DNA from: Dioscorea cayenensis subsp. rotundata
Taxonomy: Eukaryota > Streptophyta > Magnoliopsida > Dioscoreales > Dioscoreaceae
Direction of reading: 5' to 3'
Assembly: GCF_009730915.1 (NCBI RefSeq)
Contig: NC_052486.1
Coordinates: forward strand, 22,349,589 to 22,413,588
Length of the DNA: 64,000 nt
In this document: positions 18,539 through 51,397 of the stretch, piece by piece
How the letters are laid out: each line of letters opens with the position of its first letter
How positions within the stretch are numbered: the first letter of the stretch is position 1
Notes under the pieces: model-generated
Database searches by the model: none
What the model saw: the letters and a program-made list of their open reading frames with translations, nothing else
Told to the model about the DNA's origin: nothing
Translations under genes and position numbers: made by a program

Positions 18539-19351
18539 TCACAAAATATAGTTTTTAGTTGCAGGTAGTGAAGAGATGCATCCATCATTCCAGTTATATT
18601 TTTCTTAATGTTTTATTGTTGCTTGCTTCAATGAACTTTTCTTGATAAAGATGTTTCAGTTGCAAGCCAAATCAGTATAAACTTGAGTAGAAGGGAACAA
18701 TTTAAGTGATTGATCGAAATAAAGGAATTAATAATTTTGTCTGCATAAAAATATTTAAAAAAAAATTATAATTTAATATTACACAACTTTATTGACTAGC
18801 ATGTTTATTAAACTGGATAGATGAAAATCTTTATTATCTAATATTTTAAAATTAAATAAATCACAATACGCTTGGATGAAATAAAGAAAAGTGCTCATAA
18901 AAAACCTCAACTAATTTCAAATTTCAATCCCGCCTATATAATAACAATTTAAAATTCTTGCTTTTTTATGGATATATAATTAGTTATGATGTTCTCCAGG
19001 GTTATATTCGCAAATAACCCTAAACTATAATAACAGAACACGAACTAAACCCAATAATATTTCCCAAGTTTCATCAGCGTTTTGCAAACATAATAAAAAC
19101 ACTTTAACTTACTAGCTACTTTCTCAACTGATCTTTTATCTTTCAAATTGTTAATTAGTGGTTAATGATTCCTGCTTCAACTCAGATTATGAGTTCAAGT
19201 ACTACATTGACTCAAATTCCCAATCCAACTCTATCTAAAACTCAACAACAATAACAATACATAATACATATAAATACATAAGAGCAAAACCAAGAAACAC
19301 AATTGCTTGAAAAGTTTCAAGTGTTAATTGAAGCATATTCATTCAACAGTG
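18539..19351 (+). promoter_or_regulatory. SBT2 3' flank and AATP1-type promoter, copy A
   Basis: This stretch holds the SBT2 3'UTR and then the upstream region of AATP1. It is shared with block B (30392-31813) and, from 39981, with block C (to 40644). Landmarks are the nonanucleotide TAATATTAC at 18774-18782, a telobox-bearing motif at 18987-19025 (ending ACCCTAAAC), and a TATA box TATAAATA at 19269-19276, 83 bases before the ATG at 19352. No other gene was seen. Confidence 0.6.
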
Positions 19352-19582: not shown

Positions 19583-22698
<3,116 letters not shown>

Positions 22699-24960: not shown

Positions 24961-25117
24961 TTATGACCACACTGCTGACTTTGTCCTGATTTCGAAACTC
25001 TTAGCTTTGTTTCTTGATTCTGGCTGCAATTCTTCATAATTTTAGCCCCATGCTAGCATCATGCAATGCTTTCAGTTACCATGAATTGTTAGTTATCATG
25101 TGAAGTTGATCATGGAT

Positions 25118-26089: not shown

Positions 26090-26143
<54 letters not shown>

Positions 26144-26410
26144 TTGGTCTCATTAATACAAGTAATTTTCCTCCCAAATCAGTTGTTCTGCTGTTAGTTC
26201 CTCAATATTTCATAAGTATGTCTAGTTTTAGTTGGTAAAAATAGAGTTCAGTCAAACAGCACATTTGATGTTTTCGAAAAACCTGTATTCAAAATATAAA
26301 TACCAAGCAATTATCTTACAGAACAATTCTTACCTCTTATCCTGTCTCACATGTCAATTCTAACTACGCAACACCCAGACAAACATACAAATTACCCATA
26401 CATGTTTAAT
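25283..26410. repeat. Segmental duplicate of 59830-60930
   Basis: Non-coding sequence matching 59830-60930 in the same orientation, including the AAGCTAAAGTAAAGTAG start, a GGCTGGGCAAGCTCAACGGA stretch near 25800 and the CATGGCGCCAAGGCAAGGGG stretch near 26055. An (AAT)n microsatellite at 26089-26142 is far longer here than in the partner copy (60647-60663). No gene recognised. Confidence 0.8.
26089..26142. repeat. (AAT)n microsatellite
   Basis: About 18 uninterrupted AAT units. The duplicated copy near 60650 has about five. Confidence 0.95.
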
Positions 26411-26973
26411 TCAGTGTAGTTAGAAATATGGATCTTACGATTCATATCGTTTTTCATCGGTAAAAGTTCGAATCTTATAAAAGAATCGAAATTGATCTAG
26501 AATCGTTAATAAATCATTTGAATCGGTCCCGAATTAGTTGAATCAGTCCCGAATCAATTGAATCGATATGAATAGAGAAGATGAACCATTCCTAGTTAAT
26601 ACAAGTTTTAAATAAATAAAAAAAAGACAAATCAGCCCTTATTTAATTAATCTTTAAATTTGTTATCGAAAAACAAATTCAAAGATTAATTAAAAGATAA
26701 TGCTTTTTTTTTTAAAATTTCAATATAAAATTAATTTGTTATCTTAAAAAACTTGTAAAGGAAAGAAATTTTTTTATTATTTTTATTATTTTTTAAAATT
26801 TGAACTATTTTTGAAATAACTAATGTTTTTTTTAAATATATATAGGTTTGCTTGATACTTGAAAATATCTTTCAAACTTAAAACATAATCTTAAAATAAG
26901 AAAATGTCTTCCAAACTATTTTATGTTTAGTGCATGACTTAGAATTTATTGTTTTTATTTTTTTGATACAATA

Positions 26974-27040
<67 letters not shown>

Positions 27041-27256
27041 TTCTACTCAAAAAAATAGGAGAAAAAGACACTCCAAGTTTAATTGGAAATCAATAATAAT
27101 AACATTATATAAAGGGTAAAGTTGAAAAAAAATAAATAATGTCTGTGTGGAGCTTTGTGGGTGTCTATGATAGTTTTTTTTTTTAATTGAAATGATTTAT
27201 TCACCTTTTCAAAAAAATAAAAAAAATAATTCAGTGTTTTATCAAAATAGAGAGGC
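26411..27256. other. AT-rich intergenic sequence with a (TA)n tract
   Basis: No gene seen. The stretch 26440-26580 repeats GAATCG-type words, several within TTGAATCGGTCCCGAAT-like units, and a (TA)n tract lies at 26976-27037. Confidence 0.6.
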
Positions 27257-29563
27257 ATGGCATTGAACAAAAACATTTTTGCTATGGCCATGTCTCTTGC
27301 TAGCTCAGCAATGGCATTGCACACTTGCATTAACAAATTTGTACCAGAAGAATTTTGGCATTTTTTTTTCTGGCTAGTTGCTTCTAGTTTCCAAATACTC
27401 TCTTATTAATAATGTTCGAAGTTGTTTACTTCAAGAGCGCGTTAATTTCTTGAAAAATCACCCAACTTTGCCTTATTTTCACTTTAGTCATCCAACTTCA
27501 AAATGTATCAAAGTGATCATTCAAGTTACAAAAACTTTCACTGGATAGTCACTCGAGATTTTTCGGTGCCCAATCGCCTATGTGGCAGCCGAGTTAGCGA
27601 CTGATGTCCACATCATCAAGCTTATGTGGCTTGTTCACATCAAATTAAGTTGTTGAGTCAGCAAAACAACCGACACCTCAGCCTTTTCTTCTTCTTCTTC
27701 CCCTCTGATTCTTCTTCTCTATCCTCTACTTCTTCTTGTCATTGTTCTAGAGATTTCTGAACTGGTGATCAAAGTTTCTCATCTACCTTCTTCATCTTCA
27801 TTCCAATGACTAGATCAGTACAACGACGATGAGCAGGAGTGAGCCCTCTTTCCTCTGCCGCAACTAGATATTGGAGGGAGTAGTAGGTGATGCCAATCCG
27901 ACGAACTAGGCTTCTATAGAAAACATCATCCGAAGAGAATAATCGTACCATCTCATCAGAGCGAGATCGGTTGCTAGGGGTGAGGATAAGGTCGAGCGAT
28001 GAAGAAATGGAAGAAAGATATGCGGAGAATAAAACTTTATCACCGTCATCTTCATTGAGGTAATAGAAGAAGAATCAGAGAAGAAGGAGACCAAGAAAGG
28101 GCTGAGGTGTCAGGTTGTTTTGCCAACTCAGTGACTTAGTCTAACATGGACAAGACATGTAAGCCTGATGATGTGGACATTAGCCACTGGCTCAGCTTTT
28201 AAGGTGGCCACGTAGACTACTGGGCGCCGAAAAGTCTCCAGTTACTGTCCGGTAAAAGTTTTTGTAACTTGAGTGATCACTTTGGTACGTTTTGAAGTTG
28301 AATGACTAAATTGAAAATAAGACAAAGTTGGATGACTTTTTAAGAAATTAATCCCTTCAAGAGCTCACCTTTTTTTTTTTTATCAAAGAAAAAGATAAAT
28401 ACAGCTTAAATAATGTATACCAAGCTACAGTGGCCTACCTTAGTTCCAAAATATCATCTTCCACAAATAAGATCAAAGTGAAGAAACAAGGTTATGAAAA
28501 GAGTTTAGTCATCTCATTGGACACAAGAAACACAAGCAGACATGGCATAGGACGTTTACATTCCATCTATATTAGAGTGGTGGGAGAAAAGTTCAAAGAA
28601 CAAGATAAGACACTACAACTCTTTCACAATGAACATGATGAGTGGATTTCCATCATTCATGACCATCCTTCCACATTTGACACAATGGCAATGGATCCAG
28701 AGCTCAAGCAAATGGTCATGGAGGATTTAACTAATTTTATAAAGCAAAAGGATTTTTACAGGAAAATCGGTAAAGCTTGGAAGCGTGGTTATTTGTTGTA
28801 TGGGCCACTAGGCACCGGTAAATCTAGTTTGATCTCTGCAATGGCCAACTTCCTCAAATTTAACATTTATGGCCTTGAGCTCGCCGGAGTTAGAAATGGT
28901 TCAATTCTTAAGAGACTATTGATTGAGACATCGAATAAATCCATAATTGTTGTCAAAGATATTGATTCCTCGATACCATTTGACAACAGGGATAGCGACG
29001 ATTTTGATGCCAGTGATGCAAAGGTGATAATTTTTTCCCATACATATATATAAACTTCTCTATGATCTTTTTATCTAATATAGCATATTATTCTAATAAC
29101 ATCTCTCATTTGTCTATTGATAAGCTACTCTTTCTTTATTACTAAACCTTGTTGATGGACTTTGGTCAAGTTGAGGTGAAGAGAAAATCATTGTGTTCAC
29201 AACAAACTACAAAGAACGTCTTGACCCAGCATTGCTTCGTCCAGGAAGAATGGATATGCATATCTATATGGGTATTGTAGCCTCTGCATGATTAGGATCT
29301 TAGCTTTCAACTACCATGATGTTAATGATCACCCTTTGTTCAAAAAAATTAAAGCATTGATCCAAGAACTTGAGATAACTCCTGCTTATGTAGCTGAAGA
29401 ACTAATGAGAAGTGATGATAGTGAGGTTGCATTTCAAAGACTCCTCAAGAATCTCCAATGCATGAAAAAAGAAAGAATCAAAGCTAATGAAGATAGTTCT
29501 CTACATGGGAAATCCTTGATTGATCAATATGTGGAGAAGGAAAATGACTTACAAAAAAAATAA
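27257..29563 (+). pseudogene. Diverged AATP1-like AAA-ATPase pseudogene split by a MULE
   Basis: N-terminal codons start at ATG 27257 (MALNKNIFAMAMSLASSAM, then KFVPEEFW), aligning with the AATP1 anchor region. A 917-bp Mutator-like element at 27439-28355 splits the first exon. Coding similarity resumes near 28400 (YLSSKIS) and runs to 29022; the second exon starts near 29135 (LLNLVDGLWSS) and ends at the stop near 29563. Decay is clear. Walker A reads GPLGTGKSS instead of GPPGTGKSS. Walker B reads VVKDID instead of VIEDID, losing the catalytic Glu. A stop replaces Cys after WSS, and one base is missing after MHIYMG. It is far more diverged than the copies in blocks A-C, so it is an older paralogue. 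Confidence 0.85.
27439..28355. mobile_element. Non-autonomous Mutator-like element (917 bp) with long TIRs
   Basis: The two ends are long inverted repeats of well over 200 bp. The left starts GCGTTAATTTCTTG; the right, reverse-complemented, starts GGGATTAATTTCTTAA, and similarity continues through TTTTCGGTGCCCA-type words. A 9-bp target duplication, TTCAAGAGC, flanks it at 27430-27438 and 28356-28364, the size typical of Mutator. There is no transposase ORF; the inside is pyrimidine-rich, unidentified sequence. It sits within an exon of the AATP1-like pseudogene. Confidence 0.9.
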
Positions 29564-29582
29564 ACGGTTAAAGTATGCCATA

Positions 29583-30167
29583 TGGATATATATATTCAAG
29601 GGTAAAGTCTGCAAAATTCTGTTGAGTGATCAACAGAGACAACAACTTGGCAGTAAAAAAAACAACAAATTGAGACAAATCTGCCAAGCAATTCAGACAA
29701 ACGCTTTATACATTCAGAAATTCAAAACAAAAATTTACCTCTCTTCTGAAATTACCACTTGGGCATGCGCACATTCCCTATCAATACAACCTCCCAGTGC
29801 ATTCGTCCGAGCCACAATGACAGTCCTTCCTCTTAATGTTACCATCAGAATCATGCACCTGATCAACAGCATAATTGTAGTGGTATGTTAGTTCCTGCAA
29901 GGGGGGAATGTTTTCAGCAGCAAAAAGCATAATGTGAGGCATGCTCTTATCATCGTGATCATAGAGCACGTTCTGAGCATAGAGGTTCGGAGAGCAGCTG
30001 TGGTTGATAAACCTGCCAACGTTTCCGTGCTTAGATGCATCGACAGTGTAGCCCTTCTCCTCCACAGTCCACACCTTGGAAAGATGCACTCTTTTTCAGT
30101 TCCGGTATACACATTGATAATCCTTCCCAAACAGATTCATCATGATAGTTGTTCCCGATGGCAAACA
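29583..30167 (-). pseudogene. SUVH (KRYPTONITE-type) H3K9 methyltransferase, C-terminal fragment
   Basis: The minus strand encodes the end of a SET domain plus post-SET region. GNNYHDESVWEGL lies near 30130-30155, NVGRFINHSCSPNLYAQNV at about 29965-30030 (SET cofactor motif), ELTYHYNY near 29880-29900, and a post-SET Cys cluster CHCGSDECTGRLY ending in a stop at 29781. In SUVH proteins this module methylates histone H3 Lys9. About 200 bases of probable 3'UTR follow to 29583. The first part lies in another frame from the rest, a one-base shift near 30065. The pre-SET, SRA and most of the SET domain are absent. At about 30167 the sequence switches to an SBT2 3' tail on the opposite strand. Confidence 0.85.
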
Positions 30168-30391
30168 AGTACCAGGTTGTGGTGCGTGAACCAGCCGGGG
30201 TGGCCGTGACAGTAAATCCACAGGCATTTACCATACAGCCGAACTCTTCGATGATCCTGAAGATCATGCTTGAAGGCAGGGAAATAGCTAATAATTATAC
30301 ATTCGGAGAGTTGGTTTTTCAATGGTGATAAGAATCATGTTGTCAAGGTCCCTCTTGCAATCTTTGTTAGCAGTACTTTGTGATCACAAAA
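30168..30391 (+). pseudogene. SBT2 subtilase 3' tail fragment (block B)
   Basis: Almost identical to the last ~220 bases of the SBT2 gene (18328-18538), from YQVVVREPAGVAV to the stop region, but with an extra T in the TTTTTCAATGG stretch near 30318 that breaks the frame. The 3' flank also matches. It is joined head-on to an antisense SUVH fragment at a TACCAGG word. It shows that block B once continued into an SBT2 gene. Confidence 0.9.
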
Positions 30392-30629
30392 TATAGTTTT
30401 TAGTTGCAGGTAGTGAAGAGATGCATCCATCATTCCAGTTGTCATATTTTTTTCTTAAGTTTGAAAAAGTGGTTGCTTCAATGAACTTCTCATGATAAAA
30501 AAATGTTTCAGTTGCAAAGCCAAAATGAGTATAAACTTGAGTAGAAGGGAACTATTTAAGTGATTTATCAAAAATAAAAGGAATTAATAATTTTGTCTGC
30601 ATAAAAGTATTTTAAAAAAATTATAATTT

Positions 30630-30808
30630 GCCAACGGCCTTTGAGTCAATTGCCATCTGGTCCCTTACGTAAGGTGTTCATTTCGGGGAGGATTCAGGAT
30701 CGAACCTCATAGCCTACTCAAGGTGAGGGCACATGGGTGGTCGGTTGAGCCTCGCTCCCTCACATGTCAGCGTCCACGAGTTCCAGTCTTTGTTGTCTTT
30801 CTCAAAAA

Positions 30809-30839
<31 letters not shown>

Positions 30840-31137
30840 CTAAGCGCTAAAAAAATTAATAATTTTTATCGCATAAAAGTATTTCTTAAGCGCTAGAATC
30901 TCAAATCAAGCTGACGATTCTGACTCTGATCCTGCGCAGGAGTAGTTGTTCCTTTTTGATTGTTTGGGCGGGGCATGAGGGACCCGGATGATGTCTTTCG
31001 CTTTTCCCGACTTTTTCTCCTCGTATTTTTTTATTTTCTCGTTGTTCTTGGTTCTATTCCTCACTACTGGTGAGAGGACTTATCTTTTGTTTTTTGTTGC
31101 TCTTTTTTTCAATAAAGCTGTGAATTTATCCACATTT
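30630..31137 (+). mobile_element. SINE-like retroposon with a 21-bp target duplication
   Basis: Inserted in the AATP1 upstream region of block B and absent from block A. A 21-bp direct repeat (ATTTTAAAAAAA... to ...TTATAATTT) flanks it at 30609-30629 and 31138-31158. The left end, GCCAACGGCCTTTGAGTCAA, resembles the head of the SINE at 51993 (GCCAACGATTTTCGGGTCTA) and carries a B-box-like GGATCGAACCT near 30690. A (TA)n tract lies at 30810-30831. The last 300 bases end AATAAAGCTGTGAATTTATCC, resembling a plant LINE 3' end. It is either a long SINE with a LINE-like tail or a composite; no ORF. Confidence 0.65.
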
Positions 31138-31813
31138 ATTTTAAAAAAATTATAATTTAATATTACACATCTTTATTGTTATAATGTAAAAAGCTTTTGA
31201 CAATCTTCATGTTTATTGTATGATGAATTTGAATGGATGTATTAACTAGCATTGTTTATTAATTAAACTGGATAGATGAAAATCTTTATTATCTAATATT
31301 TTAAAATTAAATAAATCACAATACGCTGGGATGAAATAAAGAAAAGTGCTCATAAAAAACCTAAACTAATTTCAAATTTCAAGTTTCAATCCGCCTATAT
31401 AATAATAATTTAAAATTCTTGGGGTTTTATGGATATATAATTAGTTATGATGTTCTGCAGGGTCATATTCGCAAATTACCCTAAACTATAATAAAAGAAA
31501 ACGAACTAAACCCAATAATATTTCCCAAGTTTCAACAGCGTTTTGCAAACATAATAAAAAACACTTTAACTTACTAGCTACTTTTTCAACTGATCTTTTA
31601 TCTTTCAAATTGTTAATTAGTGGTTAATGATTCCTGCTTCAACTCAGATTATGAGTTCAAGTACTACATTGACTCAAATTCCTAATCCAACTCTATCTAA
31701 AACTCAACAACAACAATAACAATACATACATATAAATACATAAGAGCAAAACCAAGAAACACAATTGCTTGAAAAGTTTCAAGTGTTGATTGAAGCATAT
31801 TCATTCAACAGTG
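31138..31813 (+). promoter_or_regulatory. AATP1 promoter, block B
   Basis: Upstream region of the intact AATP1 gene, shared with blocks A and C. It carries the nonanucleotide TAATATTAC at 31158-31166, the telobox motif at 31448-31486 and the TATA box TATAAATA at 31731-31738, 83 bases before the ATG. Confidence 0.7.
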
Positions 31814-33454
31814 ATGGCCTCCAACTCCAAGAAAAGCATGAGTTCAAGGCAAGGTTTCCTTGCCACCACAGCCTCCATTGCTGCTTCAGCCATGCTGGCA
31901 CGCTCCGTCTTCTATGATTTTGTCCCCGAAGAAGTTCGAACCTCAATGTTCTCTCAAATAAAAATCTTCCAAAACCTTCTCTCTCGCGAATTCTCCATGG
32001 TCATTCATGACAAGGAAGGAATGACTACCAACAATGTTTACAAAGCTTCAATGACTTACCTCAGTTCTTTAGTATCACACTCCACACAACGTGTTCGAGT
32101 GAAGCAATTCAACGATGATAAGAGTTTAGTCGTCTCATTGGATTCAGGCCAAAAAGTTATCGATGTATTTGAAGGGATCCAATTCAAATGGTGTTTGTAT
32201 TGCTCACAGAACAATGTGCCTTCTAAAGATAGTGATAAAAAAATTAGTAGTTACATGGTATCGAATTCGTATTCTCTTGAACTCTCATGCAAGAAAGAAC
32301 ACAAAGACAAGGCTTTGGATGTCTACCTCCCATGGATAATGAACTGGTGGAATAACACCAAAAACCAAAATACCATCCTCAAGCTTTTCCTCAATAGTTA
32401 TGAAGATTGGAGTTCTGTTAATCTCCATCATCCTGCCACCTTTGACACAATTGCCATGGATCCAGAGCTTAAGAAAACAATAATTGATGATTTATCCAAA
32501 TTCAAAAAAGGTAAAGATTATTATAAGAGCGTTGGTAAGACTTGGAAGCGTGGTTATTTGTTATATGGTCCACCAGGGACCGGTAAATCTAGTTTGGTTG
32601 CAGCTATTGCCAACTTCCTCAATTATAATATTTATGATCTTGATCTTGCTCAAGTCCAAGGTAATTTACAACTAAAAGGATTGCTAATTGAGATGACTAA
32701 CAAGTCAGTAATAGTGATTGAAGATATTGATTGTTCAATACCAATCAAGAACAGAGATAGTAAGGACTCTTATAGTTACAGACCAAAGGTCAGAGAGTAA
32801 TTTTTTCTTTTCAATTATTTGTTTCTTTATTTTTATGTTTTTTTATATTTTAACACACAACTTGTTTCTTTGTTTTTTACTTTGAAGGTAACTTTGTCAG
32901 GTTTATTAAATTTTGTTGATGGTCTTTGGTCAAGTTGTTCAGAAGAAAGAATAATAATTTTCACAACCAATTATAAAGAGCAACTTGATCCTGCATTATT
33001 AAGGCCTGGTAGGATGGATATGCATATTTATATGGGATATTGCAGTCCTTCCATGTTTAGGACCTTGGTCTTCAACTATCACCACATTGAGCATCACTCA
33101 TTATTTGAACAGATTGAAGCATTGATTAAAGATCTTGAAATCACTCCTGCTACAATTTCTGAACATTTATTAAGGAGTGATGATGCTGATGTTGCACTTC
33201 AAGAACTCCTCAAATTTCTCCAACTCAGTAAACAGGAAGCTCTTGATAAAGAAAAAGAGAAAGAAAATAAAGATGATGAAAATAAAAAGGATGAAGAAAA
33301 GAAAGATGAGAATAATAAAAAGAATGCCGGGAAAAAGGATGATAAAAAGAAGAAAAAGAAGGAAAAAAAAAATGTCAAAAATGACTCCGATACTGATGAC
33401 GACGACGACGATGATGACTCCGATACTGATGACGACGACGACGATGATTTTTAG
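31814..33454 (+). CDS. AATP1: AATP1/BCS1-like AAA-ATPase, copy B (513 aa, intact)
   Basis: Member of the plant AAA-ATPase family related to mitochondrial BCS1, ATP-driven membrane-anchored remodelers often linked to stress. The ATG at 31814 is preferred because the frame upstream begins only at a non-ATG codon. Two exons, 31814-32788 and 32888-33454, join in frame to 513 aa. Visible are the N-terminal hydrophobic anchor (about residues 13-32), the BCS1-type N domain, Walker A GPPGTGKSS (about 251-259), Walker B VIVIEDID (about 301-308), sensor TTNYKEQLDP and arginine-finger region LLRPGRMD. The last ~70 residues are a Lys/Glu-rich coiled stretch and two DSDTDDDD acidic runs. It is nearly identical to the copy at 40645, indicating recent duplication or gene conversion. 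Confidence 0.92.
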
Positions 33455-33619
33455 TTCAATAAATTCTATGTGATTTTTTGTTTTATTTAAATTGGTGTAT
33501 AGTCTTTGCTCGTGTTTCTGTTTGTTTTATTTATGTATTATTTTTTATAATGTTATTTTATTAATTCATTACATTCATTGTGATTCAATTCTTTATATTT
33601 TATTTAAATTTATGTGTAT

Positions 33620-33623
<4 letters not shown>

Positions 33624-33659
<36 letters not shown>
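33624..33659. repeat. (TA)n microsatellite downstream of AATP1 copy B
   Basis: About 18 TA units. The equivalent site in block C (42457-42510) is longer. Confidence 0.9.
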
Positions 33660-33662
<3 letters not shown>

Positions 33663-33787
33663 CTTTATTTATGCCATATATTATAAAATTTTATAAAATT
33701 TTTATATGAATAAAATATCCACATGTTTTTCCAATATATTTTGAGGGATCTATTCATTAAAACAAATCTAAAAATTAGGCAAAACAG

Positions 33788-33827
33788 TGATGTTCTGCAG
33801 GGGTGTATTCGTAAATTAACCCTAAAC
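33788..33827 (+). promoter_or_regulatory. Telobox-bearing motif upstream of MED31, copy B
   Basis: A 40-bp motif, TGATGTTCTGCAGGG...ATTCGTAAATTAACCCTAAAC, which also occurs upstream of all AATP1 copies (18987, 31448, 40257) and of MED31 in block C (42651). ACCCTAAAC is a telobox, common in promoters of plant growth and translation genes. It lies 136 bases before the MED31 ATG. Confidence 0.55.
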
Positions 33828-33962
33828 TTAATGTGTTGGACTTCGGATCCGTGAGGTTTTAAAACCGGATCCGATAAGAAAGCAAAATGGATCCAAACCC
33901 GATATTTCTCAGGGCTTATAAAAATTTTCAACATTTTCTCAGAGCTCACGAACGCTGCGCAT

Positions 33963-35386
33963 ATGGATCCCTCCGGCGACGATGGTGATCATCACTCCGA
34001 CCCTGGTTCCTCGCAAGCGTGGGATTCCTCTTCGAATTTCTAGGGTTTTGATTTTTTTTATTGGTTTCTCCGTGATGATTGATCTCCATAGGGTTCGGTT
34101 TTGTAGCCCCAAGAGCGTTTACAAGGATCCAGATGATGGGCGCCAGCGTTTTCTGCTCGAATTGGAGTTCGTGCAGTGCTTGGCCAATCCCATGTACATC
34201 CACTGTGAGTTATCCTGTTGATTTTTTTTTCAGGGTTTTGATATTTTTTCGATTCACTTTGTGGTTTGAAATCACTCACCGTTCGATGGTGGCGTTGTTT
34301 TTTTTTGTTTGTCATGATCTTGTTTGATTTCTATTAGCAAGATCCTATATTGTTGTTTAATTTCAATGCTTTTTCGTTTTCAAATGTTAGTTTCACAAGA
34401 AAGTATTTAGTAATCAGATTGAAGAGCAAGGATTTATGTTTTTCCTCTATGTTATTTTGAGTTCGATAGTTATTGATGTTCCTAGGAGAGTTTTCTTGAG
34501 TTTGTTATATATTTTTCCAGAAATTTAGAGTCATTTTGGTTGGCATGTTTTCCCCTTTTGTGGTTGAAAACATAAATTCAAAAAACTTGTTTGGGCACCT
34601 ATTTTTAAAACCATTTCTTACAAAACATCCCTGTCTTTTTTGTTTTTACAAGAAATTCTGTAAATGTTATCCATTTATTGTGTTGTAAATTGTTTTTGGT
34701 CACCCACTGATTTCTTAGGAGCCACTAGTTCTAAGCTACTTCAGGTGAGTACTAAAAGCCCTATAAAGGGTAGACTTCTCTTGGTTTTTTTTTTTTCTTT
34801 TCTTTTTTGTATCCACAAGGATTCAAACTCAAAGCAGTTGCTTAAGTAACCGACGCATGTACTATTTAGACCTGACTCCGGTTGGTTAAACCAATTTTAT
34901 CCTCGTCAGATTATATCTTTTAATTCTCTTTATTAGGATAAAAAGCCTATATTATTGTTGTTACTAAAGCATTCATATCATATGCATATATATATATATA
35001 CACAAAAGTATATGATTGAATATGTATGTCAAACGAACATGTTTTCAGTTACTTTTTTAAAAACATTGTCAAAACAAACAGGCGCATAAGATTGTTAGTT
35101 GACAGGATTGAAGACTAAGTATTTTTTTCTTTATTTTATTATTATTTGTTTGATTGATTTTTCTAAGAGAATGTTTTCTTTAGTTTGTCACAACAATTTA
35201 TGGAAATATAGGTTTTTTAGTAATTAGGATTGAAAATTAAGAGTGTATGTTTCTTCTTTATTGTTCATAGTTGATTGATGTTTCTAAGAGAATGTTTTCT
35301 AGAGTTTGTCATAGCTCTTTCAAGAAATTTATGTTTCTTTATTATAGAGGATTGAAAACTATGCATTTAGGTTTTAGGTTTTTTCT

Positions 35387-35427
<41 letters not shown>

Positions 35428-37272
35428 ATATATTTGAGTTCATAGTTTGTTGATGCTTCTAAGAGAATGTTTTAATGAATTTGTTATATGTCTTTTTTAT
35501 TGTATGATTTATTATATCTATGTTTTAGTAAATATGGAAGCATGATTTTTGTCTTATGGAGGCAGATTTAGCACAAAACTGCTATTTCGAAGATGAGACA
35601 TTTATGGTATATTTGAAATACCTACAATACTAGCTGAATCCTGAGTACGTCAAATATATAATGTGAGTGGGGTCTTTAAATAAGATGTGTTTTGTTTCTG
35701 TTTCTTTGGCATCTAACCTGTGAGATTTGCTAGTGGAATCAATTATTGCAAAATTATCAAATATTATTTTGGTTTTTTTCTAAGTTTGTCAATTGTGATT
35801 GTACATTTGAGTTTTGTATGATATTTACAGGTGTCCTCATTGTCTTTTCTTTTTGAGCTTCTCCAGAATGCTAATTTTCGGAATGCCATGGCACATCCTG
35901 GCAACAAGGTTACATTCTTGTAATTCGAACATGGACAGGATGATTCTACACCAGTAGATTTGGGCTTCATGCCGATATCAACCTTTTTATTTATTATCAG
36001 TGATGTCAAAGAATGCATTTCAATGAGAAACTCTGACTTTCCCCTAATAGTTTCTGGCTTAATAAGTCATCCTATTTTTTTATTCCAGTACTGTTTTTCT
36101 GACTTTGTTTTAAAGTAGATAGTATGCCATTATTATTGGATCTTTTAATCTATTATTGTAAATACTCTGCTTGTCGTCTCCATAGCCTCAGTGATTTTCT
36201 TGATATACTGTTTTTTTAATTATTCAAATAAATCTTGAAGGTGAACAAATAAGTCACAACACCATTGGAGCCCTTTGACTCAATCTGATTGATGAGAAAA
36301 GAACACATACACACACACAGACACACATAGCAGTCAGATTGTTAGTTGCACAGTTTTTGAGTAACTGAGAAAAGGAGATCACACACATTCACACACACAC
36401 TCAAAGTGGTCAAATTGTTAGTTGCACAATTTCTGAGTAAGTGAAGGCTGAGTTTGATAGTGTTCTCTGACGGTTGATGGTTCTTGAAGGTGAAATAACA
36501 GCAAAATCTTGAGAGGCCAGCATCAAATCGGTGTCTGTCTGATGAATACAAAAGGAGAATAGATAATCACAACACCATGATAGCCCAGAGTCAAATCTGA
36601 GCCTGTCTGCTAAATGAGAGGAGAATAGATGTACATTTTAAGACATATGCATATCTATATATACAGGTGTTGGATTGTTAGATGCACAACCTATGGGATG
36701 TTAATTAAAAGGCTGATATCAAAAGCCTTTCATTGATGTTAGATGGTAATGTGAATGCAAAACCGGTGCAATTAATGTTGCTTCCCTTAAACGACCCGCT
36801 ATTTCCTTTTTAGTTCTTCAACATTGATGTTCCCCACTTTGTCGATCACTGCTATATTTGCCACGTTCTTTGAAATGATTGCTCTTAGATTACAAACCGC
36901 TTTTCTTTCTCATTAAACTCTTTCCATGGTGGATATCGACTATTTTTCCCTCTTCTGTAGGAGTTGGCTCATAGGCAGCAATATTTCTTTTGGAAACACT
37001 ATAAGAACAAAAGATTGAAGCACATTCTACCGCGCCCTCTTCCAGAACCTGCACTTCCTGGTCCTGCTCCAGCTCCAGCTCCAGCTCCGGCCGCAGCTCT
37101 GGTTCCAGTTCCAGCTTCAGCTCCACCTCCTATTCCATCCCAGGCACAGATGCCTTCAATGGTTGCTGCTGCACCAGCACCTTCCATGCAATTTCTCAGG
37201 CAACCAGTATCTGCACTTCCGAAAGCTGACATGAGAAATAACATGGGGGATTGGAGGAAGAGAAAGTATGCT
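33963..37272 (+). pseudogene. Mediator subunit MED31, copy B, broken
   Basis: Same exon plan as the intact copy in block C: 33963-34018, 34092-34204, 35566-35662, 35831-35908, 36961-37265, with a last short exon at 37457 (ATACTGA). The MED31 core is recognisable (SPKSVYKDPDDGRQRFLLEL, then NCYFEDETFMVYLKYLQY). Copy B has TAG where copy C has TGG (Trp of LQYWQ) in exon 3, and exon 4 is one base shorter (78 against 79) in a run of Ts, shifting the frame before the LLQNANFRNAMAHPGNK segment. The last exon is open, with a Pro/Ala-rich stretch six bases longer than in copy C. It is therefore a recent pseudogene of MED31. Confidence 0.88.
35389..35419. repeat. (TA)n microsatellite in a MED31-B intron
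   Basis: About 15 TA units, followed by TGTATGTATATA. The matching block C site (43987-44009) is shorter. Confidence 0.85.
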
Positions 37273-37736
37273 CCTTTCTCCTTAATTGGCTGATACTTAA
37301 ACTTTCAATTCATCTAATATCTTTACTGTTAAAGACTCATATGTTTGCTAAGTTGTCATAACTACATGCCTACATCTTCATAATTATGTTTGTAGAAGCA
37401 GATGATTTTTTTTCCTTTTCTCTCTGGCGCTGACACCAATGTTTTGGTTTGCACAGATACTGAACGTATGTGATGTTGCAAACCAAGAGAGGAGATAGTC
37501 ATCTTACCTTGTCAGGTTGGCAAGGGACTATGAATCATGAGCTACCCGGGCTCTTATGATTGATGATTATTTTGTCAATGCAGTAAACAGAACAACCAAC
37601 AATTTAACTTGATGCCTTCGTTGATCCTCTTTACTAGGGCAATGGATCCTATTGGGAGCTGCACAGCAAGCTTCTGTATTTTGTGCCGAGCCTGCTGATG
37701 TGACTGTGGCTGAAATTCATGCCTGAACACCAAGTA
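37273..37736. other. MED31 copy B 3' flank
   Basis: Colinear with 45908-46379 of block C, including the ATGTGATGTTGCAAACCAAG stretch. The match ends near 37736, where geminivirus-like sequence begins. Confidence 0.8.
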
Positions 37737-38860
37737 AAATTTTTTCTTGACTTATCCTCGTTGTTCTCTGTCCAAGGAGGAGGCATTGTCGCAATTGCTT
37801 GCCATTCCATTGCCGAGTAATAAGAAGTTCATTAAAGTTGCGAGGGAGCTCTATGATGATGGTTAACCGCGTCTACACATGCTGATTTAATTGGAGGGCA
37901 GGGCTTGGATAACAATTCAAAGGTTGTTTAATCTGCAACATCTTCTTTCCTCTCGAAGCTTTCGTCCAAACATTCAGACTGCCATGTCTTACTCAGTCGT
38001 CAAGGCGTATGTTGAGGAGGATGGTGATTATTCTGACTGGGGTGAATTCTAGATAGATGGGAGATCTTCAAGGCGTGGTCCACTTAATTTAGCTGAGGTT
38101 TATGCTGAGGCCTATAATGTTAGCTCCACTGCAGATTTATTACAAATAATCAAGGAGAAGGATCCTAAGTCGTTTTTTCTTTAATATCATAATCTGAAGG
38201 CTAATGTTGACCGTATATTCGCGCGACCCATCTTTGTTTTCAAATCGAAATGGGATTGTTCTTCTTTTGTAGTTGATACATGTATTTCACAGTGGTTAGC
38301 GGATAATTTTATTGTTAATGGCGTTGCGCGGCCGGAAGGAAATAATATATATATTATTGGGAGTGATATTGATCGGCCAATGAGTTTGATATTAGAAGGC
38401 CTGAGCAGAACAGGTAAAACGGCTTGGGTTCGGTTTTTGGGCCCGCATAATTATATTTGTTAGCATATGGACTTCAATTCAAACACATTCCGGAATTATG
38501 TCATATACAATATAATTGATGATGTCGCTCTTCACCATCTTAAATTAAAGCACTGGAAATAGTTAATTGGTTCACAGTGAGATTGACAGTCAAACTGTAA
38601 GTACAGAAAACCGGTTCATATCACAGGTGGTGTTTCGGCTATTGTATTATGCAATCTTGGGCTTGAGTCTAGTTATTCGGAATTTCTTGATAAATTTGAA
38701 AATATTTCACTAAGGCAGTGGAGACCCGTCATAATGCGGTCTTCGGGTTCATTTCCTCTCTGCTCTTTCAGCTCTCAGGTGACCAGTCTGGTTTGACGTC
38801 GATGACGGTGTGATCGACACTGCTATTATCACTTACACAGCTCTGTCGGCGACGTGCAAC

Positions 38861-39269
38861 ATGGATTCCCCTACCGGACTCTTCATTACTGCACCACAGG
38901 CTAAGAGGGGCGTATATGTTTGGCAAATAGATAATCCCCTCTATTTCAAATTGATTGAACATCACCAATGACCTTTTGGTAAACCGTATATCGTATGACA
39001 TCGTTGTCATTCAGATACGGTTCAACTATAATTTGAGGGAGGCATTACAGATTCACAAATGTTGGTTTACTTTCAGATTTTTTACTACCATGCGTCCGAG
39101 TGGTTCTGGTTTCCTTCATGTATTTAAAACTCGTGTATTGTATTTTCTGGATAATCTTGGTGTTATTTCCGTTAACAATGTAATTTGTGCTGTATCTAAC
39201 TTTGTTTCCAGACTGGAACATGTAATCGATGTAGAGCAGGATTTTAATGTACAATACAATATTTATTAG
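38861..39269 (+). other. REn (AC3)-like section of the geminivirus fossil
   Basis: Within the fossil, this stretch matches the replication-enhancer protein family by the short segments [25 protein letters not shown] and LDNLGVISVNNVI. The reading is broken. The degenerate TrAP-equivalent region overlaps its upstream part, as in begomoviruses. Confidence 0.85.
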
Positions 39270-39969
39270 TTTTTTTATTTTACCTCACAGTGTTTGTATT
39301 CTTGTGTATTGGCATTAGATATGGATCTCTGTCTTGATTATACATGTATTGTTTGTTTTATACTTGGATGTATATGTTATACTTCTATGTGTCCATTGTG
39401 TATTTCTTGTTGTCTATCATTGTGTACTGGAGGAGTTTTTGTTTACTTGTACTCGGGAAGCTATTTTTGATACATGTATTTCGGAAGCTTTAGCTTATTA
39501 TGTTTGATTGCATATTTCTATTTATCCAATTTCAAACGACGGATAATGATATATCGGCTCCGCTAGGCATGATGAGTAATCGCACCTACATACATTGGTT
39601 TTGACTTTAACAAGACAAAAATACATGTTTCGGGTTATTATATTTACCGGATACAACATCATTTTTCTTTTTAGTCTCTTTTTTAGACATTGTAGGTTAT
39701 CTCGGTTGGGATGCCAGACTTGTTCACCGATCCAGGAGAATGGGACGGTGGATGCAAATGTTGCCATATGGACGGTGATGGAAGAGGGGGAACTTCAGGT
39801 CACGTGGGTCCAGATAGAAGAGAGGGAGGGAACATGAGGCATTCAGGATAGGCAACAGAATGGAGGGGCTCCACGGTGCACCACTCCACCAAGAGACTCT
39901 CCACTAATGCGGGAACTTTAATTTGAATGCCGGCATCTGATTGGGCCACATGGTGGTGGACCTGAGGGT

Positions 39970-39980
39970 GGCCATCCGGT
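39970..39980 (+). other. Remnant of the geminivirus origin stem-loop, cut at the nick position
   Basis: GGCCATCCGGT equals the complementary-sense stem arm of the begomovirus origin up to the base opposite the A that follows the Rep cut (TAATATT/AC). The next base, 39981, begins host sequence ACACATCTTT. In host copies A and B that same host sequence is preceded by TAATATT. Confidence 0.8.
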
Positions 39981-40644
39981 ACACATCTTTATTGTTATGA
40001 TGTAAAAGAATTTTGACCATCTTCATGTTTATTGTATGAAGAATCTGAGTGGATGTATTAACTAGCTACTTCATTAAACAGGATATATGCAAATCTTCAT
40101 TAGCTATTATTTTAAAATTAAATAAATCACAATACGTTGAATGAAATAAAGAAATTGTTCATAAAACCCTCAACTAATTTCAAAATTCAATTCGCCTATA
40201 TAGTAATTCAAAATTCTTGTTTTTTTAATGGTTTTTTATGGATATATAATTAGTTATGATGTTCTGCAGGGTCATATTCACAAATAACCCTAAACTATAA
40301 CTATAATAAAAGAAAACGATCTAAACCCAATAATATTTCCCAAGTTTCATCAGCGTTTTGCAAACGTAATAAAAAAAACTTTAACTTATTAAGTATTTTC
40401 TCAACTGATCTTTTATCCTTCAAATTGTTAATTGGTGGTTAATGATTCCTGCTTCAACTCAGATTATGAGTTCAAGTACTACATTGACTCAAACTCCCAA
40501 TCCAACTCAATCTAAAACTCAACAACAATAACAATACATATTACATACATATAAATACATAAGAGCAAAACCAAGAAACACAATTGCTTTCCCAGTGAGC
40601 TAGCTCAGAAATTAAAGTTTCTGAAACATATTCATTCAACAGTG
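39981..40644 (+). promoter_or_regulatory. AATP1 promoter, block C
   Basis: Host sequence resumes at 39981 and matches the AATP1 upstream regions of blocks A (from 18781) and B (from 31165). The telobox motif is at 40257-40295 and the TATA box TATAAATA at 40550-40557, 95 bases before the ATG. The extra spacing comes from a short unique insert near 40590-40620 (CCCAGTGAGCTAGCTCAG). Confidence 0.7.
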
Positions 40645-42280
40645 ATGGCCTCCAACTCCAAGAAAAGCATGAGTTCAAGCAAAGGTTTCCTTGCCACCAC
40701 AGCCTCCATTGCTGCCTCAGCCATGCTGGCACGCTCCCTCTACTATGAATTCGTCCCCGAAGAAGTTCGAAAGTCAATGTTCTCTCAAATAAAAATCTTC
40801 CATAACCTTCTCTCTCGCGAATTCTCCATGGTCATTCATGACAAGGAAGGACTAACTACCAACAATGTTTACAAAGCTTCAATGACTTACCTCAGTTCTT
40901 TAGTATCACACTCCACACAACGTGTTCGAGTGAAGCAATTCGACGATGATAAAAGTTTAGTCATCTCATTGGATTCTGGCCAAAAAATTATCGATGTATT
41001 TGAAGGGATCCAATTCAAATGGTGTTTGTATTGCTCACGGAACAATGTGACTTCTAAGGATAGTGACGGAAATTTAAGTTTCATGTTATCGAATTCATAT
41101 TCTCTTGAACTCTCATGCAAGAAAGAACACAAAGACAAGGCTTTGGATGTCTACCTCCCATGGATAATGAACTGGTGGAATAACACCAAAAACCAAAATA
41201 CCATCCTCAAGCTTTTCCTCAATAGTTATGAAGATTGGAGTTCTGTTAATCTCCATCATCCTGCCACCTTTGACACAATTGCCATGGATCCAGAGCTTAA
41301 GAGAACAATAATTGATGATTTATCCAAATTCAAAAAAGGTAAAGATTATTATAAGAGCATTGGTAAGACTTGGAAGCGTGGTTATTTGTTATATGGTCCA
41401 CCAGGGACCGGTAAATCTAGTTTGGTTGCAGCTATTGCCAACTTCCTCAATTATAATATTTATGATCTTGATCTTGCTCAAGTCCAAGGTAATTTACAAC
41501 TAAAAGGATTGCTAATTGAGATGACTAACAAGTCAGTAATAGTGATTGAAGATATTGATTGTTCAATACCAATCAAGAACAGAGATAGTAAGGACTCTTA
41601 TAGTTACAGACCAAAGGTCAGAGAGTAATTTTTTTCTTTTCAATTATTTGTTTCTTTATTTTTATGTTTTTTTATATTTTAACACACAACTTGTTTCTTT
41701 GTTTTTTACTTTGAAGGTAACTTTGTCAGGTTTATTAAATTTTGTTGATGGTCTTTGGTCAAGTTGTTCAGAAGAAAGAATAATAATTTTCACAACCAAT
41801 TATAAAGAGCAACTTGATCCTGCATTATTAAGGGCTGGTAGAATGGATATGCACATTTATATGGGATATTGCAGTCCTTCCATGTTTAGGACCTTGGTCT
41901 TCAACTATCACCACATTGAGCATCACTCATTATTTGAACAGATTGAAGCATTGATTAAAGATCTTGAAATCACTCCTGCTACAATTTCTGAACATTTACT
42001 AAGGAGTGATGATGTTGATGTTGCACTTCAAGAACTCCTCAAATTTCTTCAACTCAGTAAACAGGAAGCTCTTGATAAAGAAAGTGAGAAAGAAAATAAA
42101 GATGATGAAAATAAAAAGGATGAAGAAAAAAAAGATGAGAAAAATAAAAAGAATGCCGGGAAAAAGGATGATAAAAAGAAGAAAAAGAAGGAAAAGAAAA
42201 ATGTCAAAAATGACTCCGATACTGATGACAACAACGACGATGATGACTCCGATACTGATGACGACGACGATGATTTTTAG
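40645..42280 (+). CDS. AATP1: AATP1/BCS1-like AAA-ATPase, copy C (511 aa, intact)
   Basis: Two exons, 40645-41616 and 41717-42280, give 511 aa, almost identical to copy B. The same features are present: N-terminal anchor (TASIAASAMLARSLYYEF), BCS1-type N domain, Walker A GPPGTGKSS, Walker B VIVIEDID, sensor TTNYKEQLDP. The arginine-finger segment reads LLRAGRMD rather than LLRPGRMD; the finger Arg itself remains. The C-terminal KKDDKKKKKK and acidic DSDTDD repeats differ slightly in length from copy B (DDNNDDDDSD here). The ATG at 40645 is chosen by homology. It likely acts as an ATP-driven membrane-bound remodeler, like other AATP1 proteins; its substrate is unknown. Confidence 0.92.
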
Positions 42281-42453
42281 TTGAATAAATTCTATGTGAT
42301 TTTTTGTTTTATTTAAATTGGTGTATAGTCTTTGCTCGTGTTTCTGTTTGTTTCTGTTTGTTTTATTTATGTATTATTTTTTATAATGTTATTTTATTAA
42401 TTCATTACATTCATTGTGATTCAATTCTTTATATTTTATTTAAATTTATGTGT

Positions 42454-42456
<3 letters not shown>

Positions 42457-42510
<54 letters not shown>
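42457..42510. repeat. (TA)n microsatellite downstream of AATP1 copy C
   Basis: About 26 TA units, longer than the corresponding tract at 33624. Confidence 0.9.
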
Positions 42511-42514
<4 letters not shown>

Positions 42515-42650
42515 TTATTTATGCCATATATTATAAAAATTTTTATAAAAATTTTTTTATATGAATAAAATATCCACATGTTTTTCCAATATATTTTGAG
42601 GGATCTATTCATTAAATCAAATCTAAAATAAAAAAAAAAAGGCAAAACAG

Positions 42651-42690
42651 TGATGTTCTGCAGGGGTGTATTCGTAAATTAACCCTAAAC
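42651..42690 (+). promoter_or_regulatory. Telobox-bearing motif upstream of MED31, block C
   Basis: Same 40-bp motif as at 33788, ending ACCCTAAAC, 136 bases before the ATG. Confidence 0.55.
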
Positions 42691-42825
42691 TTAATGTGTT
42701 GGAGTTCGGATCCGTGAGGTTTTAAAACCGGATCCGATAAGAAAGCAAAATGGATCCAAACCCGATATTTCTCAGGGCTTATAAAAATTTTCAACACTTC
42801 ATCAGAGCTCACGAACGCTGCGCAT

Positions 42826-45800
42826 ATGGATCCCTCCGGCGACGATGGTGATCATCACTCCGACCCTGGCTCCTCGCAAGCGTGTGATTCCTCTTCGAAT
42901 TTCTAGGGTTTTGATTTTTTTTATTGGTTTCTCCGTGGTGATTGATCTCCATAGGGTTCGGTTTTGTAGCCCCAAGAGCGTTTACAAGGATCCAGATGAT
43001 GGGCGCCAGCGTTTTCTGCTCGAATTGGAGTTCGTGCAGTGCTTGGCCAATCCCATGTACATCCACTGTGAGTTATCCTGTTGATTTTTTTTTCAGGGTT
43101 TTGATATTTTTTCGATTCACTTTGTGGTTTGAAATCACTCACCGTTCGATGGTGGCGTTGTTTTTTTTTGTTTGTCATGATCTTGTTTGATTTCTGTTAG
43201 CAAGATCCTATATTGTTGTTTAATTTCAATGCTTTTTCGTTTTCAAATGTTAGTTTCACAAGAAAGTATTTAGTAAACAGATTGAAGAGCAAGGATTTAT
43301 GTTTTTCCTCTATGTTATTTTGAGTTCGATAGTTATTGATGTTCCTAGGAGAGTTTTCTTGAGTTTGTTATATATTTTTCCAGAAATTTAGAGTCATTTT
43401 GGTTGGCATGTTTTCCCTTTTTGTGGTTGAAAACAGAAATTCAAAAAACTTGTTTGGGCACCTATTTTTAAAACCATTTCTTACCAAACATTTCTGCCTT
43501 TTTTGTTTTTACAAAAAATTCTGTAAATGTTATCAATTTATTATGTTATAATTTGTTTTTTGGTCACCTACTGATTTCTTAGGAGCCACTAGTTCTAAGC
43601 TACTCTAGGTGAGGTTCTTAAAACCCTATAAGGGGTAGAATTCTCCTGTTTTTTTTCCCTCTTTCTTTTTGGTATCCCCAAGGATTCAGACTCAAAGCAC
43701 TTGCTTAAGTAACCTGCGCCTCTACTACTTAGACCAACTCCTGTTGGTTAAATGAATTTTATCCTCATCAGATTATATCTTTTAATTCTCTCTTTATTAG
43801 GATAAAAAACCTATATTATTATTAGGATTGAAAATTAAGCATGTAGGTTTCTTCTTTATTGTTCATAGTCGATTGATTTTTCTAAGAGAATGTTTTCTTG
43901 AGTTTGTCATAGCTCTTTCCAGAAATTTATGTTTTTTAGTATAGAGGTTTGAAAACTATGCATTTAGGTTTTAAGTTTTGTCTTTTATATATATATATAT
44001 ATATATTTGAGTTCATAGTTTGTTGATGCTTCTAAGAGAATGTTTTCATGAATTTGTTATATCTCTTTTTGATTGCATGATTTATTATATCTATGTTTAA
44101 GTCAATTTGGAAGCATGATTTTTGTCTTATGGAGGCAGATTTAGCGCAAAACCGCTATTTCGAAGATGAGGCTTTCATTGGATATTTGAAATACCTGCAA
44201 TACTGGCAGAAACCTGAGTATGTCAAATACATAATGTGAGTGGGGACTTCAAAGAAGATGTGTTTTACATTTGTTTCTGTGGCGTCTGACCTCTGAGTTT
44301 TGCTAGTGGAATCAATTATTGCAAAATTATCAAATATTATTGTTGTTTTTTTTTTAATTTTGTCAATTGTGATTGTGCATTTGACTTACGTGTGATATTT
44401 ACAGGTATCCTCATTGTCTTTTCTTTCTTGAGCTTCTCCAGAATTCTAATTTTCGGAATGCCATGGCACATCCTGGCAACAAGGTTACATTCTTGTAATT
44501 TGAACATGGACAGGATGATTCTACACCAGTAGATTTGGGCTTCATGCTGATATCCACCTTTTCATTTATTATCAGTGATGCCAAAGAATGCATTTCTATG
44601 AGAAACTCTGACTTTCCCCTAATAGTTTCAGGCTTAATAAGGCATCCTATTTTATATTCCATTACTGTTTTCTGACTTCAATTCAAAGTAGATAGTATGC
44701 CATTATTATTGGATCTTTTAATCTATTATTGTAAATGTTTTGCTTGTCATCTCCATAGTCTTATGTCTTCCTTTCTGGTTGATTTTCTTGATATACTGTT
44801 TTTTTAATTATTCAAATAAAATCTTGAAGGTGAACAAATAAGTCACAACACCATTGGAGCCCTTTGACTCAATCTGATTGATGAGAAAAGGAGAACACAC
44901 ACACAGTGGTCAGATTGTTGGTTGCACAATTTCTGAGTAACTGAGAAAAGGAGAACACACACACATTCAAAGTGGTCAAATTGTTAGTTGCACAATTTCT
45001 GAGTAACTGAGAAAAGGAAAACACACACACACAAACAAAGTGATCAAATTGTTAGTTGCACAATTTCTGAGTAACTGAAGGCTGAGTTTGATAGTGTTCT
45101 CTGACGGTTGATGGTTCTTGATGGTGAAATAACAGCAAAATCTTGATAGGCCAGCATCAAATCGGAGTCTTTTTTGATGAATACGATAGGAGAATAAATA
45201 ATCACAACACCATGATAGCCCAGAGTCAAATCTGAGCCTGTCTGCTAAATGAGAGGAGAATAGATGTACATTTTAAGGCACATGCATATCTATATATATA
45301 TAGGTGTTGGATTGTTAGATGCACAACTTATGTGATTAATTAAAAGGCTGAGTTCAAAAGCCTTTCATTGATGTTAGATGGTAATGCAAATGCAAAACTT
45401 GTGCAATTAATGTTGCTTCCCGTAAATCACCCACTATTTTCTTTTAAGTTACATTGATGTTCCCTACTTTGTTGATCGCTGCTATATTTGCCATGTTCCT
45501 TGAAATGATTGCTCTTAGATTACAAACCACTTTTATTTCTCATTAAACTCTTTCCATTGTTGATATTGACTATTTTTCCCTCTTGTAGGAGTTGGCTCAT
45601 AGGCAGCAATATTTCTTTTGGAAACACTATAAGAACAATAGATTGAAGCACATTCTACCGCGCCCTCTTCCAGAACCTGCACTTTCTGCTCCTGCTCCAG
45701 CTCCAGCTCCAGCGCCGGCTCTGGTTCCAGTTCCAGCTTCAGCTCCACCTCCTATTCCATCCCAGGCACAGATGCCTTCAATGGTTGCTGCTGCACCAGC

Positions 45801-46084
45801 ATCTTCCATGCAATTTCTCGGGCAACCAGGATCTGCACTTCCAAAAGCTGACATGAGAAATAACATGGGGGATCGGAGGAAGAGAAAGTATGCTCCTTTC
45901 TCCTTATATGGCTGATACTTAAACTTTCAACTCATCTAATATCTTTACTGTTAAAGACTAATTTGTTTGCTAAGTTGTCATAACTACATGCCTACATCTT
46001 CGTAATTATGTTTGTAGAAGCATATGATTCTTTTCCTTATCTCTCTGGCGCTGACACCTATGTTTTGGTTTGCACAGATACTGA
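42826..46084 (+). CDS. MED31: Mediator of RNA polymerase II transcription subunit 31 (intact copy)
   Basis: MED31 (Soh1) is a small conserved subunit of the Mediator middle module and helps couple transcription factors to RNA polymerase II. Exons 42826-42881, 42955-43067, 44139-44235, 44405-44483, 45589-45887 and 46078-46084 join in frame to about 216 aa. The N-terminus is MDPSGDDGDHHSDPGSS. The Soh1 core runs through YKDPDDGRQRFLLELEFVQC, YFEDEAFIGYLKYLQYWQK and MYPHCLFFLELLQNSNFRNA. The plant-specific tail is rich in Pro and Ala (LPEPALSAPAPAPAPAP) and ends DRRKRKY. If the last intron is retained, the frame ends instead at 45915 (KYAPFSLYG). The upstream telobox motif is at 42651-42690. Confidence 0.9.

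Positions 46085-51397
<5,313 letters not shown>

Follow-up and report, generated by a model that had tools for sequence, protein, structure and literature searches.

The route by which geminiviruses enter plant chromosomes is an open question. An endogenous begomovirus-like fossil (EGV) of the yam Dioscorea cayenensis subsp. rotundata raises it again, because one of its ends stops where the viral Rep nicks, at a host site whose neighbouring copies carry the viral nonanucleotide. What was cut, the virus, the host or both, and what happened to the host DNA around the insertion? We have analyzed this fossil in a stretch of 64,000 nucleotides (the window, to which all coordinates without a contig name refer) together with the other EGV copies found in the genome.

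Content of the fossil

The fossil occupies 37735..39981, with its virion sense on the minus strand, and extends from the nick (39980/39981) to the region of Rep motif I (37738). Of 10 pieces searched one by one against Pfam, six matched geminivirus domains: Gemini_AL1 was found in two, Gemini_AL3 in two, and Gemini_AL1_M in one above the cut-off and one weak (E 0.1). The Rep (C1) remnant (37738..38796, plus strand) is one frame of 353 codons with nine stops, eight inside and one at the end; the frame is given as read, with nothing put back, and has Pfam support up to 38460. Between 37738 and 38460 the Pfam-matched Rep pieces all lie in one frame despite several stops, which, speculatively, may reflect deamination of methylated DNA. 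The first codons of the fossil match Gemini_AL1 from profile position 7 (E 5e-15), confirming the truncation inside Rep that had been described in the first-pass annotation of this DNA. Read in virion sense, the fossil runs from the nick to about a dozen codons inside Rep (an estimate from the start of the AL1 profile match) and, since it stops there, it lacks the intergenic region that the founder had on the Rep side.

The REn (C3) remnant (38864..39269, plus strand, its end taken from the open frame) matched Gemini_AL3 on two pieces (E 1e-22 and 5e-7). As for a coat protein remnant, none of the three minus-strand pieces in 39522-39988 had a Pfam match. At 39721..39981 (minus strand) lies the virion-side part of the common region of the virus, which extends to the nick and is found too in copies beside sequence that we have labelled B-like. 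Geminivirus Rep and REn domains were therefore found within host DNA that is duplicated on both sides, which identifies an endogenous begomovirus-like element. Like yam EGV1/EGV2 and other endogenous geminiviruses, it is begomovirus-like and has partial Rep and REn, many copies and A- and B-like parts (PMC5014472, PMC7758297, PMC8626973); shuttle proteins typical of B components have been reported for D. alata EGVs (PMC7758297). The available portions of these three papers contain no analysis of ends relative to the nick, host duplications or empty sites.

The fossil is the seam of a tandem duplication

Comparison of the window with itself showed that 31164-37738 is repeated as 39980-46381, and that the EGV sits exactly between the two copies. 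The left copy (unit A, 31164..37738, plus strand) keeps the presumed ancestral left flank and an intact TAATATTAC, and the right one (unit B, 39980..46381, plus strand) starts at the nick junction. Self-BLAST aligned 31164-34959 with 39980-43823 at 93% identity and 35223-37738 with 43821-46381 at 88%; over the 6231 bases aligned, A and B diverge by K2P 0.055 and are separated by 44 indel events. Homology starts in unit B at T39980, the equivalent of T31164 in TAATATT/AC (the slash marks the cut), and ends in unit A at 37738, where Rep begins. At this left junction (37735..37738, plus strand) 4 bp, TAAA, are common to the host (unit B) and to the viral Rep of the family copies. When 45900-46900 was compared with the genome, two matches were obtained, one to the whole of B and one to A as far as the left junction of the EGV, and the right flank beyond unit B was found once.

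The duplication had been missed in the first-pass annotation. It leads us to reject a simple insertion: the EGV (37735-39981) joins the two copies of a host unit of ~6.5 kb repeated in tandem, and for the same reason there is no single filled site. Unit B contains an AAA-ATPase gene (40642..42280, plus strand; AAA_assoc, At3g28540-like lid) in two overlapping open frames, with Pfam matches to PF14363, PF00004 and PF25568. It seems to be the gene duplicated by the event, an extra host gene copy having been created there. Host duplication and viral integration were very probably one event.

Other copies of this host region were compared. A third copy in the window (around 18 kb) groups with A, and B with a fragment on C18, by seven informative sites versus one (unrooted), which is the grouping to be expected had A retained the old left flank. 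The fragment (C18:9780087; L013:8087) is 310 bp of the host promoter region; it begins 8 bp to the right of the fossil break, and is for that reason uninformative about the left side. In addition, window 13627-33034 has an inverted cluster copy at C16:21902879-21926000, ~0.44 Mb away and with main pieces 94-98% identical, which is either a recent segmental duplication or an assembly artefact. It was considered as an empty site including the right boundary and discarded: the match stops at the equivalent of 33034, inside the unit A gene, so it confirms the host motif only.

The right junction

The right end of the fossil (39970-39989) reads GGCCATCCGGTACACATCTT, and 39970-39994 can be divided by direct reading into GGCCATCCGG-TA-CACATCTTTATTG. 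The TA (right junction, 39980..39981, plus strand) is a 2-nt overlap of the viral complementary strand with host TAATATTACACATC; as it is common to virus and host, the position of the break is uncertain by ±1 (three possible points). Other EGV copies of the same genome (L002, L004, L006, L021, L023, L037 and others) run through the intact origin and loop beyond this point, so the viral side of the fossil stops at the nick, within one base. There is little doubt in our opinion that this end was made by Rep nicking.

On the host side, intact TAATATTAC is present at 31158..31166 (plus strand), at the left edge of unit A, and at 18774..18782 (plus strand), in a further paralogue of the left flank. 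ACA follows directly in both, and both window copies that match the host side of the fossil read TTTAATATTACACA, i.e., TAATATT/ACACA at the break. The claim that the sister host copies carry TAATATT/AC thus holds at both places, and the motif is found twice more in the inverted copy at C16:21.90 Mb. The two uninterrupted copies also have a left flank of ~460 bp in common (18314-18774 with 30158-30629, 91% by self-BLAST). Because of this shared flank, TAATATT is well supported as the probable ancestral state to the left of ACACATC.

A later insert adjoins the unit A motif (30608..31158, plus strand). Its body (30630-31136, 507 bp) is SINE-like by eye, and it has a perfect 22-bp target duplication (30608-30629 = 31137-31158) just left of the motif. 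The last base of this duplication is also the first of the host TAATATTAC, and the insert is thus a second rearrangement only a few bases away from the EGV break.

Viral ends across the genome

Matches to 39300-40300 numbered at least 46 in the genome, i.e., the window itself, eight that were host only and 37 others, these being matches to the right 681 bases of the fossil; a 601-base stretch spanning the intact origin had at least 49. All these counts are lower bounds, as both genome searches score the best 40 candidates. Among the 49 matches listed, 22 span the origin, 19 stop on its virion side, seven start on its Rep side and one is a short internal piece. Most of the end neighbourhoods were read and then sorted by hand, and ends found only with 39300-40300 were added. 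Left out of the count were five matches that lie where viral sequence joins viral sequence (C8:20124904, C334 twice, C4 twice), and copies whose loop is damaged or absent (L025/L026, L035). A junction that recurs in segmental duplicates was counted once (C14:17.2-17.3 Mb, C1:10.23/10.25 Mb, C21/C2171); among the C14 duplicates, the one at C14:17.23 Mb ends ~37 nt short of the nick.

Ten out of 18 independent virion-5' ends, window included, were within 2 nt of the nick (p 6e-14 for ends uniform over 300 nt), and 14 of the 18 fell within -9..+2 (p 7e-17, same model). The figure was 9/17 without the window, and 5/13 (p 1.5e-6) when four uncertain ends were also left out. These are C3:11.04 Mb, which has B-like sequence again after about 150-180 nt, C1:10.2 Mb, with loop-like bases beyond the end, and C6:8.21 Mb and C1999, both off by one. 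The ends at C14:6.887 and C12:20.97 Mb were placed by the alignment end only, and more viral-like bases may follow the one at C14:15.72 Mb (28 nt short of the nick). That the fossil ends at the Rep nick, as proposed from the sequence, is borne out both by the direct reading and by this recurrence.

Virion-3' ends were fewer: one out of six was within 2 nt of the nick (C974:168701, exact) and two others were at +4 and +5. The difference between both kinds of ends (10/18 vs. 1/6) gave a Fisher p of 0.17, or 0.046 when C974 was left out (0/5); with C974 counted it is not significant, and the sharper 5' end is a trend across copies rather than a result. C974 has no bearing, however it is counted, on how the 5' ends cluster at the nick. 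At C974:168500-168850 (L066) the Rep-side half begins exactly at the nick and the other side matches none of the viral probes used, a possible nick-exact virion 3' end.

A precise 5' end at the nick, a truncated 3' end and microhomology are the features of Agrobacterium T-DNA, made by the VirD2 relaxase, and this locus shares the three. It differs in involving a viral Rep and viral DNA, in a host breakpoint located at the enzyme's own motif, and in a 5'/3' asymmetry that is not significant across copies. The T-DNA-like asymmetry that had been pointed out is therefore seen at this locus but is not significant for the copies together, and as a rule for them it was dropped.

Other arrangements were seen among the copies. 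The one at C1:11.35 Mb (L049:4290-7163) is longer than a unit: from the V region it crosses an intact origin and goes once round the viral sequence to ~5 nt short of the nick, the layout that a rolling-circle concatemer would give. In L032 (C334:11457-12057) and L033/L041 (C4:9.297 Mb) two viral copies lie head to head, inverted, with the join within 3 nt of the nick. The intact viral end had no matches in a viral-contig scan.

Host duplications at other EGVs

Flanks were compared at 14 EGV loci (two pairs being mutual duplicates, and some with ~1 kb of flank, so that longer duplications could escape) and at two more. Host direct repeats embracing the insert were found at two other EGVs. At C3:2.386 Mb (L042) the repeat is ~0.41 kb (K2P 0.144); its right copy begins at the nick junction, and its left copy ends ~10 nt before the Rep-side end, with ~9 nt of filler at the left junction. 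This is a second nick-ended EGV at a duplication seam. At C8:20.12 Mb (L043) the repeat is 0.59 kb (K2P 0.031) and the left copy ends at the Rep-side end, but the right end of the insert is away from the nick; duplication does not, then, require a nick-made end. The C8 insert (L043:2502-8282) is a composite of A-like and B-like EGV inside this 93% identical direct repeat. Since the three divergences differ (K2P 0.055, 0.144 and 0.031), the three duplications look like separate events.

No duplication was found at the nick-ended copy of C6:8.21 Mb between 4.3 kb of flank on one side and 4.85 kb on the other, nor at the C7 copy within the 6 kb examined. At C14:5.487 Mb the right flank is repeated, but both repeat copies are to the right of the insert.

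The host motif, chance or Rep target

We estimated how often TAATATTAC is expected here, about once per 46-71 kb on both strands; three were found in the 64 kb, against 0.88 expected from shuffles. The background was taken from 11,408 host positions with TA likewise available for the break. Identity at 9/9 in the needed orientation had a frequency of 2.6e-4 (three positions, two of them being the window copies of the site itself); for 7/9 or better it was 0.031, and for 5/9 or better 0.47. The pre-insertion host site could be reconstructed for three nick-ended copies: 9/9 in the window, TAATATA/AA (7/9) at C14:5.487 Mb, taken from one neighbouring copy of the host repeat, and TTTTTTT/AA (5/9) at C3:2.386 Mb. 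Jointly the three give p 1.3e-4, and the two others alone a marginal 0.047. When other EGV junctions are checked for host TAATATTAC, as had been suggested, the window is perfect and the remaining two are not.

A hairpin presenting the host motif was also considered and rejected, as 82% of shuffles fold as well or better. No Rep-binding repeats beside the motif were noticed when reading by eye. Reps cut stemless ssDNA and tolerate variants with a loose specificity, T-4 and T-1 being the most preferred positions, according to the parts consulted of PMC7826260. Rep cutting of the host is plausible rather than proven. Judged from the sequence, the chances that Rep nicked the host site are nearly balanced, because a version with repair alone explains everything except the host motif. 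The earlier proposal of Rep cutting or template switching at a host nonanucleotide is thus upheld for the nick-exact viral end and the motif at this locus, and is not general, with a perfect motif at one of three loci. The microhomology that had been offered as an alternative is seen at the right junction (2 bp) and at the left one (4 bp), and is compatible with either view.

A possible AAV-like integration

The observations to be explained are the position of the seam, both breakpoints, the microhomologies, the recurrent nick-exact viral ends and the two further EGVs with flanking duplications. They could be accounted for as follows. Rep would nick the host plus strand at TAATATT/AC and remain on the 5' A. 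The 3'-OH of TAATATT would then prime synthesis that displaces the nicked strand and copies ~6.5 kb, giving unit A. The growing end would switch at TAAA, inside Rep, to a linear virion strand, and copy it as far as the virion 5' end, which Rep would have made by nicking the virus, running off at ..CCGGT-3'. Finally, Rep or a repair process would join the run-off 3' end to the 5'-ACACATC, still bearing Rep, of the displaced strand, which would become unit B. The cut of the host by Rep and the order of the steps are the parts that we infer. Strand polarity had been raised as an objection to joining virus and host at the nick. With the EGV at a duplication seam the objection falls: synthesis that started at the host nick, went through the unit and then changed template to the virion strand, leaving it at its 5' end, would give the orientation found.

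The model for this scheme is AAV2 Rep at AAVS1. In the consulted parts of the literature, AAVS1 is described as a unidirectional Rep origin, with junctions that fall on one side of the nick and mostly at short homologies (PMC2944168), and most latently infected lines as having gene duplications, with partial duplication of the target (Henckaerts 2009 as cited in PMC2900306, PMC5714925). Both systems have an HUH nickase with a matching host nick site, one-sided junctions, short homologies and a duplicated host target, and for AAV synthesis from the nick has been proposed (PMC2944168; Henckaerts 2009 as cited). In the same way as in AAV, the yam fossil has its viral end at the nick, a host motif at the breakpoint and a target duplication from the nick, the latter also at C3:2.386 Mb and not at C6:8.21 Mb within the stretch examined. 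The yam case differs in being a plant geminivirus, known from fossil sequence alone, with 6.5 kb duplicated, no fixed target locus and no Rep-binding repeat noticed beside the host motif. HPV "looping" integration also places a virus at the junction of rearranged host segments, but HPV is a circular dsDNA virus with no nickase-defined viral end, and the process is somatic (from the accessible part of PMC8025556).

In favor of the scheme, the boundaries of units A and B coincide with both EGV ends, and the host motif is 9/9 in the orientation required, i.e., with the duplicated unit on the AC side. Against it, host TAATATTAC is perfect at one out of three inferable nick-ended sites, with the other two together marginal (p 0.047). 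The nick-ended C6 copy and the C7 copy lack a duplication in the stretches examined, the sharper 5' end predicted by a Rep-capped 5' end is not significant across copies, and the host site has no stem-loop and, by eye, no Rep-binding repeats. By analogy with AAV, we put integration of the geminivirus in this manner, with the duplication in the same event, just short of an even chance.

The strongest competitor is a single event without a Rep cut in the host. The end of unit A, a Rep-ended linear viral DNA and the start of unit B would have been joined by cellular break repair, or by template switching at microhomologies, with the host TAATATTAC present by chance or helping only through the TA overlap. 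The 4 and 2 bp of microhomology agree with it, as do the C8 insert, with a flanking duplication and no nick-made end, the C3 insert, with ~9 nt of filler at the left junction and a T-run/A-run host site, and the C6 copy without a local duplication in the stretch examined. It leaves to chance a correctly oriented 9/9 match (~1e-4 to 3e-4, for a finding picked from many readings). We regard it as a real, if minority, possibility.

Improbable is a sequence of two steps, in which a duplication or a simple insertion at TAATATT/AC was followed by a deletion, or by unequal exchange between filled and empty haplotypes, that gave the seam. The cluster is multi-copy and rearranged, which makes a later exchange possible, but the breakpoints would have had to coincide by chance with both ends of the EGV, host duplications embrace the EGVs of C3 and C8 as well, and the seven sites to one that group the 18-kb copy with A and B with C18 (unrooted) are as expected if A kept the old flank. 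Still less probable is annealing through the self-complementary TAATATTA, by which viral GGCCATCCGG-TAATATTA and host TAATATTA-CACATC would have been joined with the loss of 6 nt, placed between the terminal TA repeats of TAATATTA, to leave TA. It needs no Rep at the host, and the 8 nt are common to both in exactly the orientation observed (direct reading); on the other hand, the expected product TAATATTA is absent from the junction, and other copies stop at the same viral point, with inferable host sites that have no palindrome.

Helitrons have both ends precise and insert between A and T without duplication; here one end is truncated and the host duplicated, with duplications also at C3 and C8. 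Helitron-like transposition of the EGV by its own Rep after endogenization, suggested by Filloux et al. for yam EGVs, is very improbable: the precise 5' end at the nick does recur in dispersed copies, but only one of six virion-3' ends is at the nick, the copies are diverged and unequal in extent, some insertions have host duplications, and no copy with both ends precise was seen among the few with both ends read.

Implications for geminivirus endogenization

No report of nick-defined EGV ends or EGV-linked host duplications was found in the part of the open literature that our search covered. The authors of the yam EGV work asked, in the accessible text, whether these elements, which carry Rep, resemble Helitrons (PMC5014472). 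The nick-exact 5' ends of many copies, and the host duplications that flank some, point to an AAV-like capture of Rep-cut linear DNA rather than to a Helitron. A virus fossil at the seam of a 6.5-kb gene duplication suggests that the virus entered the chromosome and the gene was duplicated in a single event, and each EGV-flanking host duplication can date its own. We propose tentatively, and with somewhat less than even confidence, that geminivirus Rep may have acted as a chromosomal nickase-integrase: it would have cut the plant TAATATT/AC and, through primed synthesis, left an endogenized virus and a duplicated gene. Yam EGVs would then be the record of repeated events of this kind, some of them with a clock in the flanking duplication.
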